Shown here in pieces: positions 9,855 to 19,965 of a DNA stretch of 33,583 bases; position 1 is the stretch's first letter, and each line of letters starts with the position of its first letter. The notes below the pieces were generated by a model that had not been told where the DNA came from, did not search any database, and was given only the letters and a program-made list of their open reading frames with translations. The DNA comes from Candidatus Omnitrophota bacterium (lineage in GTDB: Bacteria > Omnitrophota > Gorgyraeia > Zapsychrales > Zapsychraceae), in NCBI GenBank assembly GCA_028280285.1, contig JANQMA010000039.1, forward strand, positions 1-33,583, given 5' to 3'. Made by a program: the position numbers and the translations under genes.

Positions 9855-9931
<77 letters not shown>

Positions 9932-10106: not shown

Positions 10107-10117
10107 AAAAAATTTCT

Positions 10118-10201
10118 GCTGGAGTGGTGAAACTGGTAGACGCACTGGATTCAAAATCCAGCGACCGCGAGGTCATGAGGGTTCGATTCCCTCCTCCAGC
10201 A
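10118..10201 (+). tRNA. tRNA-Leu(CAA)
   Basis: The acceptor GCTGGAG pairs with CTCCAGC. The anticodon stem CTGGA/TCCAG encloses TTCAAAA, giving anticodon CAA (reads UUG). The long variable arm GACC-GCGA-GGTC and the T arm GAGGG-TTCGATT-CCCTC are typical of class II tRNA-Leu. CCA is not encoded; the discriminator is A10201, followed by a T run (10205-10211) that may aid termination. Confidence 0.95.
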
Positions 10202-10306
10202 TAAATTTTTTCTCGGGACAAGCGATTCCCTCCCCCGGCATTCTGCTTCGCTCTTACCTATTTTGATTAGAGCTTCGCAGAACAAGCCATTACTTAAGGA
10301 GCCTAT

Positions 10307-10810
10307 ATGAAACTTAAAATTTTCTTAACCCTTATTTTTTCTTTTCTCTTAATTAGTAACACTTCAGCCCAAACACCAGAAGCCAAAAAAAACATTAAGC
10401 TCAAAGACGGCACCATCTTAAAAGGACGTGTCATTAGTATGGAAGACGGCGTCTATACCATCCGCACACCTTATCTGAATGAAATTGCAATTAATGAAGA
10501 AGATATTGAAACGATAAGCGATCATGTCGTCCAACCGCTTACGCAAGATCTTCTTAGAAACGAAGTGGAAGCTGTGCAAGGACAGGTCATCGCAAACCCC
10601 GCACTCATGCAAGAAATTCAAGAAACGATGAATAATCCAAAGATAAGAGAAATTATGCAGGACCCCGAGTTTATTAACGCGGTTATGAGCATGGACCCTG
10701 AAGCAATCAAAAATAATGAAAAGACGTACGAAATGCTCCAGCAGCCGGAGATTAAAGAACTCTTTCAAAAGATTGAATCGACATTAAATAACACGCAGAC
10801 TAATCCTTAA
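10307..10810 (+). CDS. Small exported protein with beta-barrel-like head and STI1-like tail
   Basis: A 167-residue protein. Residues 1-21 are a signal peptide ending TSA before QTPEAKK. Residues about 28-68 (IKLKDGTILKGRVISMEDG...) read like a small SH3/Sm-type beta barrel. Residues about 95-160 are helical with spaced NP and DP pairs (NPALMQEI, NNPKIREIM, QDPEFINAV, MDPEAI, QQPEIKELF), as in STI1/Hop-type DP domains that bind hydrophobic segments. A strong AAGGAG site precedes ATG 10307. The last 11 bp overlap the convergent gene on the other strand. Function unknown; a role in envelope protein handling is only a guess. Confidence 0.85.
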   Translation: MKLKIFLTLIFSFLLISNTSAQTPEAKKNIKLKDGTILKGRVISMEDGVYTIRTPYLNEIAINEEDIETISDHVVQPLTQDLLRNEVEAVQGQVIANPALMQEIQETMNNPKIREIMQDPEFINAVMSMDPEAIKNNEKTYEMLQQPEIKELFQKIESTLNNTQTNP

Positions 10811-11591
10811 AAATTTTATCAAAAAAATCCTGCATGTCCTGCCAGGATTTCTTATCTGCCTCTTCACTATACCCTAAAGGAATGCCGAACTCCTTACCAA
10901 TCCTATCGGCATCGGGATTTGTAAAACTGTGCGTCGCCCCCGCGTAACTCATAAATGTGTAATCAGCACCGGCTACGTCCATTTCTTTTTTAAAGGCAGC
11001 AACGTGTTCCGCCGGTATCATAGAATCATCCGCGCCGTGACAAACAAGAATTTTGGCTTTGATAGCGCCGGGCTCGGGCACAACCGATGAAGCCAAACTC
11101 CCGTGAAAACTTACAACCCCGTCAAGGTCAACACCCATACGCGCCATGTTTAAAACAGTTGAGCCGCCAAAACAGTAACCGATGGCCGCAATCTTTTCAG
11201 GATCAACCGCTTCATGTGTTTTTAAAAAATCATGTGCGGCCACAAACTTCGCTTTATACAAATCCATATTAGCCATGGATTGACTTGCAAACTCTCCGGC
11301 TTGATCCGGATGTTTGGTCGACTTACCCCCGCCATACATATCAATAGCAAAGGCAACATAGCCAAGCTCGGCTAATTGTCGTGCACGTTTTTGTACGTAA
11401 TCATTATGCCCCCACCATTCATGCACAATCAAAACACCCGGACGCGCGCCGGCAACATCTTTATCATAGGCAATGTATCCTTTAAGGACAATGCCATAAG
11501 CCTCATAACTTACTACACTTGACTCAACTTCAGCAAAAGCAGTTGTCGATAAAGCAAACGTTAAAAGTAAACCTAATATTAATTTTTTCAT
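10800..11591 (-). CDS. Exported dienelactone hydrolase family protein
   Basis: Residues 1-21 are a signal peptide (MKKLILGLLLTFALSTTAFA). The mature part is a dienelactone hydrolase-type alpha/beta hydrolase: VHEWWGHNDYVQKRARQLA, nucleophile elbow GYCFGG with cysteine as nucleophile, Asp in CHGADDSMI and His in GATHSFTNP. Such proteins hydrolyse lactones or esters; the substrate cannot be told. I start it at ATG 11591, five bases after AAGGAG; a GTG directly before it (11594) is possible but too close to that site. Its end overlaps the convergent 10307-10810 gene by 11 bp, leaving no room for a terminator between them. Confidence 0.9.
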   Translation of the reverse strand: MKKLILGLLLTFALSTTAFAEVESSVVSYEAYGIVLKGYIAYDKDVAGARPGVLIVHEWWGHNDYVQKRARQLAELGYVAFAIDMYGGGKSTKHPDQAGEFASQSMANMDLYKAKFVAAHDFLKTHEAVDPEKIAAIGYCFGGSTVLNMARMGVDLDGVVSFHGSLASSVVPEPGAIKAKILVCHGADDSMIPAEHVAAFKKEMDVAGADYTFMSYAGATHSFTNPDADRIGKEFGIPLGYSEEADKKSWQDMQDFFDKIFKD

Positions 11592-11700
11592 CACCTCTCC
11601 TTAATGTGTATCAAAGATATATTAATTTAACTACAGAACGATTGTATCAGCTGCTTACTTAACCGCAACCCCTTTTACATACGTCTGCCAATGAATTGTT

Positions 11701-12618
11701 TTAGAGAGGATTTAAAGCTTTTTGAATAGCCTGGCGGCAGTCAAAAAGTTCCTGCGGGATAATTGTGGTAATCTTATTGTTCTTACACACAACCGGATTT
11801 TTCAAACCTTCGGTCAGCGGCATTGCGATATAGCTTGGAATAGGTGTTACTAAATGAATCCACAAAGAACTGAGCCGCGGCGTTAAAACCGGAACAGGGA
11901 TCACAAACCGTTTTCTAAAGCCTGCCACTTCTGCATATATTCTCATCAAATCCAAATAGGAAAGGACTTCCGTTCCGCCGATATCATATGTTGTTCCTAT
12001 GGTTTGCTGCGCCTCGGTGCATCCATAAAGATAATTAATGACATTATCTATTGCAATCGGTTGATTAGGCGTCTTAACCCATCTTGGTGTCACCATAACC
12101 GGCAGACGCTCGACAAGATGGCGCAGTATTTCAAAAGATACGCTGCCAGACCCGATAATCATCGCTGCCCTTAAAACAGTAACAGGCACCGATCCTGATT
12201 TAAGAATCTCCTCTACCTCCCGACGGGATCTAAGATGCCTGCTTAACTGCGCACTATCATCCCCCAGCCCCCCTAAATAAATAATTCTCTTTAAACCGCA
12301 TTGCCGGGCAGCTCGTACCATATTATTGGCCGCCATCCGGTCCGCTCTTTCAAAATCTTTGTTCTCTACATCCATTGAATGAACTAAATAGTATGCAATA
12401 TCACATCCATTAAGCGCACTACGCAGAGAATCCGGATCGCGCACATCGACCTGAACAAGTTCAACATTGGGGTGATTTGAAAAAGACTTGTCTTTTAACT
12501 TATCTTCAGAGCGGCCGGCGGCTTTCACACTAAAACCTTCTTCCAATAATTTAGGAACAAAGTTTTCACCAACATACCCGGTGGCACCTAAAACAATAAT
12601 TTTTTCTTTCTGTGCCAT
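11701..12618 (-). CDS. Atypical short-chain dehydrogenase (NmrA/SDR_a type), short form
   Basis: A 305-residue NAD(P)-binding protein: Rossmann motif GATGYVGE (11-18), AGRSEDKL, VDVRDPDSL, the family hallmark IAYYLVHSM, IIYLGGLGDD, SRREVEEIL and LPVMVTPRWVKTP. As I recall, the longer relatives (about 480 residues) carry a C-terminal DUF2867 domain; this protein stops without it. It starts 3 bp after the TIGR04073 stop, with its AGAGGA site inside that gene's end. It is the last gene of a five-gene operon. Substrate unknown; quinone, sterol or isoprenoid-like ligands are possible from the neighbours. Confidence 0.88.
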   Translation of the reverse strand: MAQKEKIIVLGATGYVGENFVPKLLEEGFSVKAAGRSEDKLKDKSFSNHPNVELVQVDVRDPDSLRSALNGCDIAYYLVHSMDVENKDFERADRMAANNMVRAARQCGLKRIIYLGGLGDDSAQLSRHLRSRREVEEILKSGSVPVTVLRAAMIIGSGSVSFEILRHLVERLPVMVTPRWVKTPNQPIAIDNVINYLYGCTEAQQTIGTTYDIGGTEVLSYLDLMRIYAEVAGFRKRFVIPVPVLTPRLSSLWIHLVTPIPSYIAMPLTEGLKNPVVCKNNKITTIIPQELFDCRQAIQKALNPL

Positions 12619-12621
12619 TGT

Positions 12622-12990
12622 TTATTTCCTCTTAAAAATGAAAACATCCGGATCACTCGGCCAGTCTTCAAAAACATAATCCGGTTTAAGCAAAGGCGCG
12701 TAATCCTGCGGTTTGGCAAATGGAAAACTCACAATATCCCAAAGTCCCGAGGCCGTCCTTTTAACCGTCTGCACCATACCCCAAACTGCCCCGCTTGCTG
12801 CCCAAACAAGAAAGTGGTCCGTTATATGTGCTCCTTCAATCCAGTAGGCCCGCGTCTGCTTAGGGATCTCAACAGATGCAGTGACAACATTAACAACGCC
12901 TCTTGTAAGTTTATTTCCTGCACTCTCAGCAAAAACTTTTGAAACACCCGTTAAACTAAAAATAATGGTAAGTATAATTAAATTTTTCAT
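12622..12990 (-). CDS. Small exported TIGR04073-type (exosortase-associated) protein
   Basis: A 122-residue protein with an N-terminal signal peptide (to about residue 21, VFAESAGNK). The body has the TIGR04073 pattern: N..TRGVVNV..A.VEIPKQ, a glycine/alanine-rich hydrophobic middle (FLVWAASGAVWGMVQTVKRT), GLWDIVSFPF, then YAPLLKPDYVFEDW near the end. The family was named for co-occurrence with exosortase systems but has no known activity. No exosortase or PEP-CTERM protein is visible in the window. Start supported by AGGAG seven bases upstream. Ten bases separate it from the YceI gene. Confidence 0.75.
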   Translation of the reverse strand: MKNLIILTIIFSLTGVSKVFAESAGNKLTRGVVNVVTASVEIPKQTRAYWIEGAHITDHFLVWAASGAVWGMVQTVKRTASGLWDIVSFPFAKPQDYAPLLKPDYVFEDWPSDPDVFIFKRK

Positions 12991-12999
12991 GACATACTC

Positions 13000-13599
13000 C
13001 TAAGACAGGATTGGCGCCTTTATGCCCCAATCAACGGTAATAATATTTCCAACTAATACACCGCCTTTATCGAGCAGTTTATTCCATGTAATATTAAAAT
13101 CCTTACGGTTTATTTCCCATAGACCTTTAATATCAAGCAACTTCTCTCCACTCGCTTCATCTATAATGATATCGGCATCAAAAGGCAGAACATATTCTTT
13201 TTTAACACCGTGCAAATCGAGCACGCCTTTGACTTTATATCCCTGCTCATCTTTAAAAATCGTATCACTTGTAAAAGTAATCAACGGGTACTCCTGTGAC
13301 GATAATAGTCTTTTGGAGCGCACAATTTTATCACACCAGCCGCAATTCGATGTAATTGTCTTGGTCACAAACTCCAGATAAACTGATTGAATAGTATTTT
13401 TTTCAGAATCAACTTTAACCTTTCCATTAAAATCCTCAAAGAACGAGTGATATGTTCCAATGACCGCATAATCAATCGATGCCTTAACATCAGCCTGTTC
13501 AGGATTAAGATAGACCTTGCCGTTGGCATGAACAGCTGTCGCCGTCCATAACAGAATAGTTAACCCCATCAACGGTATTCGTTTTACGTTTAAACCCAT
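13000..13599 (-). CDS. Exported YceI-family lipid/isoprenoid-binding protein
   Basis: A 199-residue protein with a signal peptide (to about residue 26, ending VHANG) and a YceI lipocalin-like barrel: DVKASIDYAVIGTYHSFFEDFNGKVKV, YPLITFTSDTI, YKVKGVLDLHGVKKEYVLPFD. YceI proteins bind polyisoprenoid chains in the periplasm. An unusual CGWC pair sits near residue 90, where the family normally has a cysteine-free loop. GGAG lies seven bases before ATG 13599; M11 is a possible later start. It overlaps the end of the SRPBCC gene by 10 bp. Confidence 0.88.
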   Translation of the reverse strand: MGLNVKRIPLMGLTILLWTATAVHANGKVYLNPEQADVKASIDYAVIGTYHSFFEDFNGKVKVDSEKNTIQSVYLEFVTKTITSNCGWCDKIVRSKRLLSSQEYPLITFTSDTIFKDEQGYKVKGVLDLHGVKKEYVLPFDADIIIDEASGEKLLDIKGLWEINRKDFNITWNKLLDKGGVLVGNIITVDWGIKAPILS

Positions 13600-14060
13600 C
13601 GTTTTGCTCCAAATAATCTTTCAATCACATCAACGCGATAACTAAATATCTTATCAAGCTGTTTACTGACAATAACCTTGTTAATAATTGGTGCTAAAAA
13701 ACCCGCCGGCAAGGCATAATGAACGATATCAATAATCTCCACACCTTTGTCCGTGGGTCTAAAAATATGCTGATGATACCAAAGTTTATACGGCCCCACC
13801 CTCTGTTCATCGACAAAAATATAGGGTTCTTTGACATGTTTAATTTCACTAACCCATAACATCTCAATACCCAATAAAGGCTTAACCGTATACTCGATGA
13901 TCATGCCATTGTAAACTTTCTCTCCGAGGTCTCCTTTTATTTTAAAATCCAATTCACGCGGTGTAATCATCGACAAATTCTGTGGTTTGGAGAAAAAGGC
14001 CCAGGCTTCCTCAATGGAAACAAAAATTTCCTGTTTGCGTTGTAAGGTAAATATTTTCAT
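13590..14060 (-). CDS. SRPBCC (START-like) ligand-binding protein
   Basis: A 156-residue cytoplasmic protein with the helix-grip pattern: EIFVSIEEAWAFFSKPQNLSMITP at the N-terminus, IEYTVKPLLGIEMLWVSEI, YHQHIFRPTDKGVEIIDIVHYALPAG and a C-terminal helix. It has no signal peptide. Such proteins hold hydrophobic ligands (the COQ10/START group). Its ATG overlaps the stop of the chalcone isomerase-like gene (ATGA), so the two are translationally coupled. Stand-alone SRPBCC next to a short SDR recalls the two-domain SDR-DUF2867 proteins. Confidence 0.85.
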   Translation of the reverse strand: MKIFTLQRKQEIFVSIEEAWAFFSKPQNLSMITPRELDFKIKGDLGEKVYNGMIIEYTVKPLLGIEMLWVSEIKHVKEPYIFVDEQRVGPYKLWYHQHIFRPTDKGVEIIDIVHYALPAGFLAPIINKVIVSKQLDKIFSYRVDVIERLFGAKRWV

Positions 14061-14668
14061 AATCTATCTTTACCCCTATAAACAACTCTTTCTTCTTTAT
14101 TAACATTAGATTTAGGGCCTAATATTTGCTCTTTTAATCTTTTATCAAATGGTTTTTCACCCAGCCATACGGAAAAAAGCGCGTGGGCAAAATCACTTCC
14201 CTTGATAATCCCCGTTAGTTGATCGTTGTGAGCAAACTTTGTTCCGACTCCTGGGATATAAGTTAAAGAAAAACGATCCCCCGGATTAAGGTCAACGAAA
14301 TAATTACGCATCCGTTCAACCTCAGATGTAATGGCTTCAAATTCACTCTTACTAACATTGGCTTTCATGCGGTCAATGGTATAGTTCTGCATTCTATGGG
14401 CCGGGATACTGACAAAATATTCAACCTCGATGCGTTTAGGAAAGCGGCCGATATTATTTTGATCAAACACACCATTTTGATAAAATCCAGCCACAAAGGC
14501 CTTGAAAAAAATCATCGATTTAAGGCCGGTGCCCTGCAGCACCATATCAATGCCTTCATCTGTATAAACATTATCAAAGCGCACATTATTTATCTCAGCG
14601 GCTTGAGCATTCGCCGCACCACTCAGTATCGTTACCAAAAAAATGATTTGCCAGGTTTTACGTTTCAT
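14057..14668 (-). CDS. Exported chalcone isomerase-like protein
   Basis: A 203-residue protein with a signal peptide (to about residue 23, ANAQA). The mature part matches bacterial chalcone isomerase-like domains: GTGLKSMIFFKAFVAGFYQNG, KRIEVEYFVSIPAHRM, PGDRFSLTYIPGVGT, FAHALFSVWLGEKPFDKRLKEQILG. These generally lack flavonoid chemistry and may bind fatty acids or isoprenoids. It is the first gene of the operon, with a promoter and a dyad upstream and AAGGAG before ATG 14668. Confidence 0.87.
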   Translation of the reverse strand: MKRKTWQIIFLVTILSGAANAQAAEINNVRFDNVYTDEGIDMVLQGTGLKSMIFFKAFVAGFYQNGVFDQNNIGRFPKRIEVEYFVSIPAHRMQNYTIDRMKANVSKSEFEAITSEVERMRNYFVDLNPGDRFSLTYIPGVGTKFAHNDQLTGIIKGSDFAHALFSVWLGEKPFDKRLKEQILGPKSNVNKEERVVYRGKDRL

Positions 14669-14696
14669 TTTTTGCTCCTTAGCTTACTACACCTTA

Positions 14697-14724
14697 AGCA
14701 TAACAAACAGATAGGAAAGCTCAA
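14697..14724 (-). promoter_or_regulatory. Promoter of the chalcone isomerase-SRPBCC-YceI operon
   Basis: On the minus strand, -35 TTGAGC (14719-14724) and -10 TATGCT (14697-14702) are 16 bp apart. The -35 box is imperfect, as expected for an activated promoter. The predicted start near 14690 gives a leader of about 20 nt. Confidence 0.5.
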
Positions 14725-14729
14725 CGCCG

Positions 14730-14750
14730 CATGATAAATTACATATCATG
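14730..14750. promoter_or_regulatory. Dyad CATGATA-N7-TATCATG, candidate operator
   Basis: A perfect 7-bp dyad with a 7-nt spacer (21 bp in total) sits directly upstream of the -35 box, centred near -50. The PAS-LuxR gene next door encodes a dimeric helix-turn-helix regulator, and LuxR-type sites are about 20-bp dyads. Assigning the site to that regulator is inference. Confidence 0.55.
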
Positions 14751-14779
14751 TATTCAATTTTAAGTGGTATTAATTTTTC

Positions 14780-15634
14780 TTAAAGTGTTTGGAGATAAGT
14801 AGTTAGGTTAATATCTTGACGAGTTATGCCCAATTTTTTGCGTATTCGGTTGCGGTGAGTTTCAACGGTTTTAAACGAAATATTAAGCATATCAACTATC
14901 TCTTTGCTGCTTAACCCATTTTTAATAAGGTTGGCAATTTCAACCTCACGGGGAGATAATTTGAGATGCTTATCAGAAACCTGAATACCGAAGGTTGAGG
15001 TAAGATCTTTTAAGTTTTGCTCAAGAATATCAATGTACTGTTTATCGAGTTTTGTCCCTTTACGACGCAGTTTTTTTAAAGCCGGAATCAACACTTCTTC
15101 AACATTAAGGGTAACACCCTCTTTGATCTTATTCTTTTCTATTTCAATTTGCTGAAGAATTTCCGTTAAAGCCGTATTTTTTTGGGCAATGGCCTCTTCT
15201 TGCATCTTTCTTTTAGTCACATCGTGTTGAATGGCTATGTAGTGCGTCACCTCGCCATCTTCATTTATAATTGGTTCAATATGCCACTCATTCCAAAACT
15301 CGGTGCCGTCTTTTTTGTAATTAATGGCTTGCCCGAAAAATACTTCATTAGCTTCGAGTTTTTTTCTTAAACTTTTTAAGACCTCCTGGTCTGTCTTGGG
15401 CCCTTGCAGCATGCGAGGCGTTTTACCTAGAGCCTCCTCCGGTGCATAGCCGGTCATTTTGGTAAAACCGGGATTGACGTAGACAATAGTGGGCCCTGGC
15501 TCATCCAATTGATTGTTGGTCACTATGATGGAGTCTTCGGAAAAATGGACAACCGAGGCAAGGAGTTTTTCATCTACCTGGTATTTGGCATTATAATTTT
15601 TCATGCTGATAAAAGGTGTCCTAAAACCGATCAC
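14780..15634 (-). CDS. PAS(LOV-like)-LuxR transcriptional regulator
   Basis: A PAS domain (about residues 25-145 from this start) is followed by a coiled linker and a LuxR helix-turn-helix (LSPREVEIANLIKNGLSSKE and TVETHRNRIRKKLGI). The PAS domain reads like a LOV domain: VNPGFTKMTGY, GKTPRMLQG in place of GxNCRFLQG, and NYKKDGTEFWNEWHIEPI with the asparagines that contact flavin. The photoactive cysteine is replaced by proline. I start it at GTG 15634 because GGAGG lies five bases upstream; TTG 15673 would add 13 residues but has no visible ribosome-binding site. It lies upstream of the chalcone isomerase operon and downstream of cheV, in the same direction. Confidence 0.88.
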   Translation of the reverse strand: MIGFRTPFISMKNYNAKYQVDEKLLASVVHFSEDSIIVTNNQLDEPGPTIVYVNPGFTKMTGYAPEEALGKTPRMLQGPKTDQEVLKSLRKKLEANEVFFGQAINYKKDGTEFWNEWHIEPIINEDGEVTHYIAIQHDVTKRKMQEEAIAQKNTALTEILQQIEIEKNKIKEGVTLNVEEVLIPALKKLRRKGTKLDKQYIDILEQNLKDLTSTFGIQVSDKHLKLSPREVEIANLIKNGLSSKEIVDMLNISFKTVETHRNRIRKKLGITRQDINLTTYLQTL

Positions 15635-15720
15635 TTCTTCCTCCATTTTACATTGATCAATTAAACCTGACAAAGAAAATGATAAAAGAATATGGAGGAT
15701 TAATCAACACAGATTGGTTG

Positions 15721-15737
15721 CATACGAATCATGTATG
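15721..15737. promoter_or_regulatory. Imperfect dyad CATAC-N7-GTATG ahead of PAS-LuxR
   Basis: CATAC (15721-15725) and GTATG (15733-15737) are separated by 7 nt. The symmetry extends outward (TTGC against GGCAA) with one inserted base. The spacer length equals that of the dyad at 14730-14750, but the half-sites differ, so a shared regulator is uncertain. Confidence 0.3.
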
Positions 15738-15764: not shown

Positions 15765-16688
15765 TTACAAAACATGCGTATCAACAAGTTTCACCAAATG
15801 ATCAAGTTCCGGCTTTGTGATTTGATCCACCGCGCCTATTTGCTTGCATTTTACGGATAATTCCGGTGAAATCATTGAAGAAAATACAATACAAGGTAGT
15901 TTTTTGATCGACTCGCTTTCTTTAATACGCTTAATAAGATGTAGTCCGTCCATCTGCGGCATTTCAATATCTGTAATGAGTAAATTACAATGATCGGTCA
16001 TTGTTTCAGCGTTTGCATCCTTACTAATTTGTTCGATATGCGTCCAGGCTTCCCTGCCATCTTGAAATTCCTGGACTTTGTAACCAGCCTGTCTAAGGGA
16101 GTCGACCAAAAGACTGCGGATAAATGCAGAGTCCTCGGCAATAAGAATATTTTTGGTCCCCCGATCAAAATTAACATCTCCGATATTGGCCAAAGACGCT
16201 CCTTCAATGCCGGATCCCGGATTGATAATGGAGGCAATCTTTTCAAAATCCAGCAAAAATAAAATATGCTCTTCAATTTTGACAACACCGACAGTGTTAC
16301 CTTCCTGTGAATTGATTAGTCCTGATGGAGGCTCAACTTGTTGCCATGAAATCCGGTGAATACGTGTTACCTCATCGACCAAAAATCCAGCATGAATTTT
16401 GTTAAACTCAGAAATAATAATACGGCTGGCCTTTTTTTCACACTCTGTGTATATATTTAAATATTTAGCGAGATTAACAACCGGAATAATCTTTCCTCTT
16501 ATATTAACGACCCCCGCCAGCGAAGAATGACCATCCGGAACAGGAACAATTTTTATATCCCCTCTTATAATCTCCCGCACCTTGGCAACGTTAATGCCAT
16601 AGAATTCTTCGCCAATACGAAAAACAACTATTTCAAGTTCATTGGTTCCTGTTTCTAATAAAATTTCGTTTTCTTTCATTTTTTCCAT
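15765..16688 (-). CDS. cheV: CheV-type chemotaxis coupling protein (CheW-receiver)
   Basis: A 307-residue protein. Residues about 17-155 are a CheW domain (IVVFRIGEEFYGINVAKVREII, GVVNIRGKIIPVVNLAKYL). Residues 179-305 are a response-regulator receiver: NILIAEDSAFIRS with E185/D186, phosphoacceptor D240 in LLITDIEMPQMDG, and K292. CheV couples receptors to the CheA kinase and tunes signalling by its own phosphorylation. It follows the PilJ-like gene by 51 bp. Two close in-frame starts (residues 1 and 4) are possible. Confidence 0.93.
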   Translation of the reverse strand: MEKMKENEILLETGTNELEIVVFRIGEEFYGINVAKVREIIRGDIKIVPVPDGHSSLAGVVNIRGKIIPVVNLAKYLNIYTECEKKASRIIISEFNKIHAGFLVDEVTRIHRISWQQVEPPSGLINSQEGNTVGVVKIEEHILFLLDFEKIASIINPGSGIEGASLANIGDVNFDRGTKNILIAEDSAFIRSLLVDSLRQAGYKVQEFQDGREAWTHIEQISKDANAETMTDHCNLLITDIEMPQMDGLHLIKRIKESESIKKLPCIVFSSMISPELSVKCKQIGAVDQITKPELDHLVKLVDTHVL

Positions 16689-16739
16689 TTTTTTTACCTA
16701 TCAGATTAATATGTTTATCCAGAAAAGAGAACAGGCCGT

Positions 16740-17798
16740 TTAATGCTTACGCGCTGATGTCTTAATCAAGGCTACTACTTTATTACTTTCTTGAAATAAA
16801 GGCATATTAAACGCATCTACCGCTGTCATTTCAAAATGCGTTAGACCTCCACGCCCCATAGCTTCAATATTTTTAACCGTCGGTGCAATAAAACTCCAAA
16901 CGTTATTAATAACATCCAACTGTGCTTTAACAGCATCGTTGTCAACCGGAGCAATACCCAACTCTTGGTCTCCTGCCGTTAGAGCCTCTAAAGTCTTAGA
17001 AAAAAGTTTTCCGGTTTTATGGAGTTCTTTAACGTTTTGATCATGATCAATATCTAAATAAATCATAAGAATTTCTTTAGCCATTTTTTGTGAAAGCATT
17101 CTTTGCTGACCGGCAAGATCAATCACTGGATTAACATGTAATCCATACCGCGTTTCATACATCCGGGCAACTGTATTGAGCTCTGCTAACAAAGCAAGAT
17201 CTTGTCCTTTCAAAACATCCACTTCCTCGTCTAAAAGTTCTTGTCCTTCAATAATCTTGTAATAAACCGGTTTTAATTGCGCAAAAATTGTTTGTGTCTT
17301 CTGCAATTGAACTTTGATTTTTGGATTGGTTGATGGGGGAATCTTAAGCTCGGCATCTCCTTGTTCTAAGCCGCTCAGTATTTTCTCAAATACAGGTATT
17401 GCCTTTTCGAGTTCTTGGGCATTTTGAGCAGAAGAAATTCCTGCCAAAATAAACAAAGACTCTTTTGACATTTTTTGAGAGAGCATAACTTGTCGTCGAG
17501 ATAAATTAATAATGCGCGCAAGCTCTTCATTAGAAACACGGGGTAAGACTTTTCCAATGCGTGGCCTATCATCATTTCTTTCTGTCGGCACGGTAACAAT
17601 CGCGGGGGCCGGAATAGCCGCAGGAATATTGTTTTGTTCGACTACAGGCTGCTTCTCTTTTTGTTCATTAACAAATGTAATATGAACTTCTGTGTTTGGT
17701 TGGTCGGCTGGCGCCTCTTCACAAAAACCTTTGCTGATAAAACACGTTAACCCTGTTATAACAGCTAAGGCTACTTTGTAATGAAATAGCTTATTCAC
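16740..17798 (-). CDS. Periplasmic protein with two PilJ-type sensor repeats
   Basis: A 352-residue protein with an N-terminal signal sequence (to about residue 27, CFISKGFCEE), then a proline/threonine-rich stretch (30-75). Two copies of a PilJ-type (type IV pili methyl-accepting N-terminal) module follow, marked by LSRRQVMLSQKMSKESLFIL (near 94-113) and LAGQQRMLSQKMAKEILMIYL (near 226-246). There is no transmembrane signalling half and no HAMP, so it would be a free or tethered periplasmic binding protein working through a partner. The partner is most likely the MCP encoded just upstream; its GTG start is 4 bp after the MCP stop. Confidence 0.82.
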   Translation of the reverse strand: MNKLFHYKVALAVITGLTCFISKGFCEEAPADQPNTEVHITFVNEQKEKQPVVEQNNIPAAIPAPAIVTVPTERNDDRPRIGKVLPRVSNEELARIINLSRRQVMLSQKMSKESLFILAGISSAQNAQELEKAIPVFEKILSGLEQGDAELKIPPSTNPKIKVQLQKTQTIFAQLKPVYYKIIEGQELLDEEVDVLKGQDLALLAELNTVARMYETRYGLHVNPVIDLAGQQRMLSQKMAKEILMIYLDIDHDQNVKELHKTGKLFSKTLEALTAGDQELGIAPVDNDAVKAQLDVINNVWSFIAPTVKNIEAMGRGGLTHFEMTAVDAFNMPLFQESNKVVALIKTSARKH

Positions 17799-17802
17799 GT
17801 AT

Positions 17803-19965
17803 TTATCCCGACTGCTGCCCAGTCACCTCTGCGCCTTTTTCTCCTACCCGCTCTTGTGTATCATCCGCTGCACTAACTCTAAACTGGCTAACCAATTGCT
17901 CAAGCTCACGTGATTGGGATGCCATCTGAGCGGCTGACGCCGCCAGCTGCTCTGAGGCTGATGCGTTACTTTCCGTAATTGATGTGTTTTCTTCCATTGT
18001 CGCCGCTTGTTCCTGTGTTGCTGAGGATATCGCACGGATTTGATCAGCCACTTGTTGAACATCGCCTACCATCTTCTTTAAACTGTCCCCCGCATCCTTA
18101 GAAAGCTCTGCTCCCGTTTGAACCTGACCAGAACTCTCGTCGATAAGTGTCTTAATATCTTTAGCCGAATCGGCACTTCTTTCTGCCAGCTTACGCACTT
18201 CATCGGCCACAACAGCAAATCCTTTTCCATGTTCACCGGCGCGGGCCGCTTCAATAGCCGCATTAAGCGCAAGCAAATTCGTCTGATCGGCAATATCCGT
18301 AATAAGATCAACTGCATCGGTAATCTGTTTGGAGCTTCTTTCAATCTGCTCCATAGAATCAATCGTATTTTCCATAGACTTCCCAGTACTATCCGCATTA
18401 GTAGAAACACTCTGGGCCAACTCATTGGCTGATTGAGAATTCGACGAGTTGGACTGAACCGAGCTTGATAATTGCTCGAAGCTGGCCGACTGCTGCTGGG
18501 CTCCATCGGAAATCTGCTGCGCACTACCTGAAATTTCATCGGTGGCAGTCGTTAACTGATTTGAGGTGGATTTGACTTGTATGATAATCTTTTCAATTCT
18601 TTCAATAAACGTGTTAAACCATCTAGCCAAACGACCCAACTCATCTTGCGAGTTAATTGTGATTCTTTTGGTTAAGTCTCCCTCTCCTTGAGCAATGTCT
18701 TTTAAGGAATCGACAATCTTATTGATTGGATTAATAATCGAACGGCTTAACAAAAACCCGATAGCACCAACAATGACGGCTATCACTAAGGCCAAAGTAC
18801 CGATTACCATTTTTAAATGATTAATCGGTTTTAAGACCTCTTGTTCTTCAATTTCAGAAATAACAGCCCAATGCAATCCTTTAATATGCAAAGGAGCGAA
18901 CGCCGTCCAAACTTTTTTTCCCAAATAGTTTTTACCATGCACTGCGCCCGACTTTCCTGCCAAAGCCTCGTCAACTGCCTGCGATTTGATTTCGAGCCCA
19001 AGGATTGTCGAATCTTCCTTGAAGCGTGAATCACTGCGCATTAAATGATCTTCGCCAACCATATACGACTCTCCGGTTTCACCTAGGCCTGCTCTATCAG
19101 CCATAACCGCATTAATCCGATCAACCGGCATTTGAAATACCGCAACACCTATAAGTGTATCCCCATCATATATAGGAGAGGCAATAAATGAAGCAGCGGC
19201 ATTGTAACTTGGCTCATAGAATTCAAAGTCCTCAAGGACAATAAAGCCCTTCTGCCCGCTTTCTAATGCCGTTTTCGCAACCCGAGCAAAATTGGTACCA
19301 CGATAAGGCCCATTAAAAAGAGATGTCGCATAATCGACTTCTTTAAATACTGAATACACTATCACCCCATTTTCAGGTTCAATGAGAAAAATATCGTAAT
19401 AACCAAACTCCTGTAGATAACTTCGGATAATCGGATGAAATGATTCATGTAATTTCGAATAAGCGCTGCCATCATTGGCATTGTCCAAGTTTTCTTTCGA
19501 TCCGATAGGATGCTCATTGGCACCGATATAAAGATGTTGCAAAATTTGTGCTGTTTTTCCTTTAGGCGTCCATCGATTAATCGCTGAACGATCTACCCCA
19601 TTTGTATTATCGGCCTGGTAGGCATAACGTTCTCGTAAGGAATTATCGATAGCAGATTTATTAGATTCATAAAACCCGGCAAGATCCTGATCGACGCGGG
19701 AGAAAGCATAAGCAAACTGTTTCATAGCTTGAACAATCATAGCGTTTTCAGAAAACGTAAGCATTTGAGAACGGATTGTACTGAAATACATTTCAATATT
19801 ATGTGCTTTGATCGTACTAATAGCTTCAAGTTTTTGATCGGTAATATGTGTGGCTGTTTTTGTTGCGGAATTAATACCAACAAAAGAAACAATAATCATC
19901 GGAACCAAACCCAACACCAAAAAAGCACCGATAATTTTGTGTTTTAATTGTAGAGCTTTAAACAT
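17803..19965 (-). CDS. Methyl-accepting chemotaxis protein with Cache sensor
   Basis: A 720-residue receptor. The first membrane helix is near 10-30 and a large dCache-like periplasmic domain follows (35-375; [56 protein letters not shown]). The second membrane helix is near 387-408, then HAMP (to about 460), then the cytoplasmic coiled coil. The kinase-binding tip ([38 protein letters not shown]) is near 555-600. The C-terminus ends GQQSG, with no NWETF-type CheR tether. It heads the set with the PilJ-like gene and cheV. Ligand unknown. Confidence 0.95.

Follow-up and report, generated by a model that had tools for sequence, protein, structure and literature searches.

Contig JANQMA010000039.1 of the Candidatus Omnitrophota assembly GCA_028280285.1 (class Gorgyraeia, order Zapsychrales), analyzed here as one whole 33,583-nucleotide window (contig C12 of genome G000 in our set), carries six consecutive open reading frames on the minus strand, which encode a PAS-LuxR regulator followed by a CHI-like protein, an SRPBCC protein, a YceI family protein, a small TIGR04073 protein, and an SDR. 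Our analysis suggests that these genes belong to an envelope or membrane stress regulon that is probably driven by the regulator, via a LOV-like PAS domain with either light or the redox state of a flavin as the input. The stress regulon itself is well supported; the gene order, its recurrence in related genomes, the linkage of the regulator, the operator-like site shared by the promoters, and the spacing of this site were all computed here.

The five-gene block from the CHI-like gene to the SDR gene spans positions 14668-11701, with successive joints consisting of overlaps of 4 and 10 bp followed by gaps of 9 and 3 bp, an arrangement that fits a single transcript, and a gap of 111 bp separates the regulator gene from the CHI-like gene. 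Both the list of open reading frames and the family matches agree with the original prediction, made from the DNA letters of this window, of five co-directional, overlapping or nearly abutting genes. The regulator (14780-15634) matches the Pfam domains PAS_9 (E=1.2e-21) and GerE (E=7.9e-14), and the first gene of the operon, the CHI-like one (14057-14668), matches PF16036 (E=1.2e-31). Downstream are the genes for the 156-aa SRPBCC protein (13590-14060), probably cytosolic and assigned by its predicted helix-grip fold; the YceI family protein (13000-13599; PF04264, E=1.2e-21, 78.1 bits against a gathering score of 23.7); the TIGR04073 protein (12622-12990; 61 bits against a cut-off of 50), placed by alignment and tree in an operon-linked branch of its family; and the SDR, of the NmrA/NAD-binding type (NAD_binding_10; 11701-12618; PF13460, E=5.8e-21; PF05368, E=5.5e-19). 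The window SDR lacks the DUF2867 domain that is present in several relatives, for example, the fused homolog in genome G002. The CHI-like, YceI, and TIGR04073 proteins are putatively exported, with signal-peptide-like N-termini (judged by eye only), in line with the three exported products proposed originally.

The new evidence that weighs most comes from comparison of the upstream regions, which revealed a 13-bp operator-like dyad, TACATGATnnGTA, that is present twice in the window with zero mismatches. One copy, a candidate autoregulation site, precedes the regulator gene (TACATGATTCGTA, 15723-15735, minus strand) and lies 15 bp upstream of the -35-like hexamer TTGATT, which forms, together with a -10-like TATCAT, the promoter-like site TTGATT-N17-TATCAT (15707-15679), with transcription predicted to start near 15673. 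The other copy (TACATGATATGTA, 14740-14752, minus strand) sits 72 bp before the start codon of the CHI-like gene and, again, 15 bp upstream of a -35-like hexamer, TTGAGC. For the regulator, the GTG start at 15634 implied by the original prediction appears better than the mechanically called TTG at 15673 because GGAGG occurs 5 nt before it, and position 15673 falls at about the predicted transcription start. A perfect repeat before the CHI-like gene that overlaps the conserved dyad, CATGATA-N7-TATCATG (14730-14750), was set aside, being matched by 13% of shuffled sequences of the same length.

The 13-mer occurs nine times in the seven genomes with the regulator, including sites before CHI in G002, before YceI-TIGR04073-SDR in G052, where the site and the regulator are on different contigs, and before CHI-lipocalin-x-UvdE in G325. 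Spacing was not used in finding these sites. Six promoters were compared first: both window promoters and those of CHI in G002, YceI in G052, CHI in G325, and CHI in G332, the last with one mismatch. Each of them has TTGAnn exactly 15 bp downstream of the dyad and a weak -10-like hexamer 16-19 bp beyond it. Among 81 genomes of the order, the composite pattern TACATGATnnGTA-N15-TTGA has six exact matches, which precede the window operon, the regulator gene, CHI in G002 and in G325, YceI-TIGR04073-SDR in G052, and a lipocalin/GST operon on contig C43 of the window genome. With up to one mismatch, there are 18 matches, compared to 4 for a reversed-pattern control; some of these precede CHI in G332, a G002 fasciclin gene, or a two-component operon of the window genome, and most of the others are probably due to chance. 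Across 1.1 Mb of locus sequence, 16 sites match with 0-1 mismatch; TTG[A/T] follows 9 of them at a spacing of 15, and 0-2 of them at any other spacing. This tally is not independent because part of these loci were chosen for containing the motif. Weaker variants that keep this spacing are located before UvdE-DUF1475-DUF1295-CFA in G323 (2 mismatches), before another of the fasciclin genes of G002 (2 mismatches), and before DUF1295-CFA in G052 (3 mismatches, near chance level). On contig C10 of the window genome (L243:2252), an operator with one mismatch in TTGA is located about 237 bp before a run of response-regulator/PAS genes; the 15-bp spacer there is similar to that found upstream of the regulator gene in the window.

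Six full-length orthologs of the regulator, 55-73% identical, were detected in the order. Five of these (in G002, G011, G052, G323, and G332) directly adjoin CHI, UvdE, or a DUF1295-CFA-amine oxidase-DUF1365-CFA cluster, with the CFA, amine oxidase, and DUF1365 genes as neighbors in G011, G052, and G323; the sixth, in G325, is at a contig end. This conserved neighborhood and the operator-like site shared by the two promoters indicate that the regulator belongs with the operon, which bears out the original placement of a sensor-regulator directly upstream. Neither a B12-binding MerR protein nor a sigma/anti-sigma pair was found beside the operon, where the adjacent regulator is the PAS-LuxR protein. 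The closest solved structures of its PAS domain in a search of the PDB are those of the YtvA LOV domain (E=4.5e-25), and in NCBIfam the YtvA family scores highest, with 123 bits, which is under the cut-off of 250. Seven of the nine conserved LOV positions other than the adduct cysteine are kept relative to YtvA (G59, R63, L65, Q66, N94, N104, and Q123); the list of these residues was taken from a published study in which the filter was 9 of 10 (PMC4682037), and the count for the regulator is under that filter.

Relatives were searched with the CHI-like, SDR, TIGR04073, and PAS-LuxR proteins, and the neighborhoods of the hits were read by BLAST against labelled references. Seven further genomes of the order contain parts of the gene set, indicating that the set is more than a product of chance; a lack of recurrence was one of the outcomes that would have refuted the original prediction, and it was not observed. 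The arrangements are SRPBCC-YceI-TIGR04073-SDR/DUF2867 in G052, YceI-TIGR04073-SDR in G030, TIGR04073-YceI-SDR-CHI in G050, TIGR04073-SDR in G015, SDR, TIGR04073, and YceI in changed orientation in G046, and CHI-SDR in G043. The locus in G002 starts with PAS-LuxR and CHI, continues with methyltransferase, SnoaL-like, VTT, DUF1295, and unassigned lipoprotein-like genes, and ends with TIGR04073-SDR/DUF2867.

The genes joined to these units suggest a stress setting. UvdE, the UV endonuclease, is encoded in the units of G323 and G325 and points to UV damage. A photo-oxidative lipid gene pool is indicated by lipocalin (in the G325 and C43 units), fasciclin, CFA-type methylases, amine oxidase, and DUF1365. 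The operon on C43 (L242:2578-6833), with the exact operator and spacing, encodes an unassigned putatively exported protein and GST-like (by eye, of the glutathionyl-hydroquinone-reductase type), lipocalin, DUF4336, glyoxalase-like, and SnoaL-like proteins, and may constitute a second unit of the regulon. Contig C24 of the window genome (L180:6512-12729) carries a MarR gene followed by DUF1295-CFA-amine oxidase-DUF1365-CFA2-SnoaL; a palindrome, ACATATCAAATATTGATATGT, is located upstream of the MarR gene. The possibility that the members of the window operon are furan-fatty-acid enzymes themselves was rejected: the CFA-type methylase, amine oxidase, and DUF1365 genes are absent from this operon and are found on C24, so that the operon looks like a companion unit rather than the furan-fatty-acid cluster itself.

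The SRPBCC assignment of the original prediction holds by fold. The 156-aa protein has no Pfam match, and the sequence libraries do not confirm the assignment; its AlphaFold2 model (pLDDT 93), however, yields Foldseek TM scores of 0.77/0.82 to 7wa9 and 0.76 to the TcmN aromatase/cyclase, consistent with membership in the SRPBCC superfamily. The family profile also matches the SulA-family epimerase 3oh8 (E=2e-4). Relatives that are 39-53% identical to the window protein were found outside the lineage. In a Bacteroidetes genome (L046), the genes for phytoene synthase and lycopene cyclase flank that of a 53% identical relative, all of them behind a B12-type MerR gene, and in a deltaproteobacterium, a relative is encoded near UvdE and lipocalin genes. 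These carotenoid and repair neighbors, together with the UvdE, lipocalin, fasciclin, and CFA/amine oxidase/DUF1365 genes in the order, sustain the light or stress setting that was suggested from the window.

The proposed tie of TIGR04073 to the job of the operon stands for one branch and fails for the family as a whole. The close subfamily consists of the window protein and six others at 48-57% identity, and all seven, which come from the families f1, f4, and f7 within the order, adjoin the same SDR family. Less closely related TIGR04073 proteins in the order (E up to 1e-8) are not beside the SDR, and none of the 30 best-scoring members in the class has any of the genes of the operon within 1.5 kb, which limits the link to a single branch. 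That branch is not one clean clade, given that only five of the seven operon-linked members form a supported group in the tree (95/93) and the other two are unplaced; nor is the family rare, with representatives in 155 of the 275 genomes of the class. The AlphaFold2 model is weak (pLDDT 71), with no fold match in the PDB, and Pfam searches gave nothing consistent. A relationship to the C-terminal region of the VPS13 lipid-transfer proteins was considered and set aside on these grounds and because the profile matches to VPS13C (E=0.22) and VPS13A (E=1.3) are non-significant. The NCBIfam model name refers to a putative association with exosortase, and TIGR04073 is named in no paper of the part of the literature that was searched.

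Taken with the known properties of the families involved, these observations lead us to infer the following mechanism. The LOV-like regulator would respond to light or to the redox state of a flavin that it carries. On binding the dyad TACATGATnnGTA, located 15 bp before the -35 element, it would activate its own gene as well as, by way of the same dyad, the CHI-SRPBCC-YceI-TIGR04073-SDR operon; activation is suggested by the position of the site upstream of the -35 element at a fixed distance. The three exported products (CHI-like, YceI, and TIGR04073) and the two cytosolic ones (SRPBCC and SDR) would form an envelope or membrane stress response. They may do so by binding, shuttling, or reducing hydrophobic compounds (for example, acyl lipids, quinones, or isoprenoids) that photo-oxidative stress damages or that the cell requires during it. 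This putative lipid or isoprenoid role, with its ligands and chemistry, is drawn from family knowledge. The operon would accompany a furan-fatty-acid-type cluster on another contig and the lipocalin/GST operon with the same operator.

Several observations weigh against this scheme. The adduct cysteine (C62 of YtvA) is replaced by proline in the window regulator and in all six full-length orthologs of the order (7 of 7), which excludes classical blue-light photochemistry there, and two further LOV positions are changed in the window protein (N61 to Thr and F64 to Met). The content of the gene set varies between genomes, and at the TIGR04073-SDR loci of G050, G015, G030, and G046, no site with up to 2 mismatches and the 15-bp spacing was found, and no full-length ortholog of the regulator was found in these genomes. 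With the cysteine missing, either light or redox may be the input. A less probable, though still appreciable, alternative is that the regulator is purely a flavin redox or oxygen sensor, similar to NifL or BAT, and that the operon responds to oxygen or quinone stress with no link to light. Under that account, the light-type neighbors reflect the overlap of photo-oxidative and oxidative damage; the proline in 7 of 7 proteins fits, as do the glutathionyl-hydroquinone-reductase-type GST-like gene in the C43 operon and BAT-LOV*, a natural cysteine-less LOV domain with proline at this position that responds to chemical reduction or photoreduction of its flavin (PMC4682037). Yet UV or light is indicated by UvdE, which in G323 and G325 falls under the same regulator or operator, and photoreduction can still allow signaling by LOV domains that lack the cysteine (PMC4682037). 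Moreover, two distant homologs of the same class (G073 and G230) keep the cysteine, within the canonical NCRFLQG, and are encoded near an SDR/DUF2867 gene of the same SDR family; in G073, the run also includes CFA, DUF1295, DUF1365, and amine oxidase genes.

A different account, in which unrelated envelope genes share an operon, the regulator controls only itself or its neighbors, and the CHI dyad is a functionless inherited promoter sequence, appears improbable. The differing content and orientation among genomes and the location of the CFA/amine oxidase/DUF1365 genes of the light-type cluster on C24, behind MarR, would agree with it, but the site precedes YceI, and not CHI, in G052 and a lipocalin/GST operon on C43, thus moving with function rather than with one ancestral promoter, and the spacing is fixed at 15 bp. 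Hardly credible is a chance neighborhood that forms no functional unit: the variable content among relatives is all that speaks for it, whereas the genes overlap, all seven close TIGR04073 relatives, spread over families f1, f4, and f7, have this SDR as a neighbor, the operator is shared, and the recurrence already refutes it. A stress regulon under the LOV-like regulator, with light or flavin redox as the input, is the explanation that we favor.

In the surroundings of the operon, a co-directional gene of the dienelactone hydrolase family (10800-11594, minus strand) is located 106 bp downstream of the SDR gene; no terminator-like site was found in the gap, the hydrolase gene was not seen at the loci of the relatives, and it is a possible further member of the operon. 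A small protein encoded at 10307-10810 (plus strand) has a signal-peptide-like start and matches the STI1/HOP DP domain (PF17830, E=2.3e-07), which is more familiar from eukaryotic co-chaperones. Upstream of the regulator (15765-19965, minus strand), genes for a CheW-receiver fusion, a PilJ-type sensor, and a methyl-accepting chemotaxis protein are arranged in a row. Positions 9855-9931 and 10117-10202 (plus strand) encode tRNA-Ala(ggc) and tRNA-Leu(caa), and the open reading frames listed across both are spurious.

Among the known systems, EL222-type LOV-LuxR proteins share the order of a LOV-type domain followed by a LuxR/GerE domain, and EL222 (8a5r) is among the PDB matches; the window protein differs in having proline for the adduct cysteine and a stretch of about 80 residues that separates PAS from GerE. 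The operator in the window probably differs from the EL222 site as well. In Pseudomonas mendocina and P. putida, a LOV-type flavoprotein likewise governs light-induced genes, in the regulon of PmlR/PplR (class II LitR) and a short LOV protein, which includes genes for an SDR, an FAD-dependent oxidoreductase, a UfaM-type methylase, and DNA repair; there, the LOV protein binds a separate MerR-type LitR repressor, whereas the window regulator combines LOV-like and DNA-binding domains in one protein with proline for cysteine, and CHI-like, YceI, and TIGR04073 proteins are not named (PMC9758184). In Rhodobacter sphaeroides, singlet oxygen induces RSP_1087-1091 (SDR RSP_1087 and CFA-type RSP_1090/1091 among them), photolyase, and the fasciclin RSP_1409 through RpoE-ChrR, that is, under sigma/anti-sigma control, and no CHI-like, YceI, or TIGR04073 module was reported (PMC7074977); the window genome has its CFA genes on a contig other than that of the operon. 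BAT-LOV* of halobacteria is also a natural LOV-like domain with proline at the cysteine position in a helix-turn-helix regulator, but BAT contains receiver and GAF domains and regulates bacterio-opsin (PMC4682037); flavin binding by the window protein is putative. Chryseobacterium lacus has, between crtB and crtZ, a "hypothetical" gene that is induced by light; this gene, in a cluster with a lipocalin gene at its end, holds the position equivalent to that of the L046 SRPBCC relative, a comparison by position alone (PMC7064467); the window operon, in contrast to these Bacteroidetes light-type carotenoid clusters, has no carotenoid genes.

The gene pool is already known, as is the concept of lipid and repair genes coupled to LOV proteins. 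Three elements were absent from the part of the literature that was searched and appear to be new: the regulator, a fused LOV-like LuxR protein without the cysteine; its operator; and the YceI-TIGR04073-SDR module. Judging from the sequences, we tentatively put forward, at a little short of an even chance, an undescribed regulon of an uncultured lineage in which a LOV-like LuxR protein with proline for cysteine, acting as a flavin-redox or photoreduction sensor, would control, through TACATGATnnGTA-N15-TTGA, envelope lipid-handling genes (CHI-like, YceI, the TIGR04073 branch, SRPBCC, and lipocalin) along with UV repair, the TIGR04073 branch being a membrane photo-oxidative-stress protein.

The CHI-like, SRPBCC, and YceI proteins and one TIGR04073 branch hereby gain a common regulatory context that is testable with one short DNA site and one protein and, if the proposed regulon is real, the operon-linked TIGR04073 branch would receive its first functional assignment. 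Homologous LOV-LuxR proteins of the same class that keep or lack the adduct cysteine near the same target gene family are a natural case in which such a pair would provide a direct test of whether LOV photoreceptors and flavin redox sensors are interchangeable.

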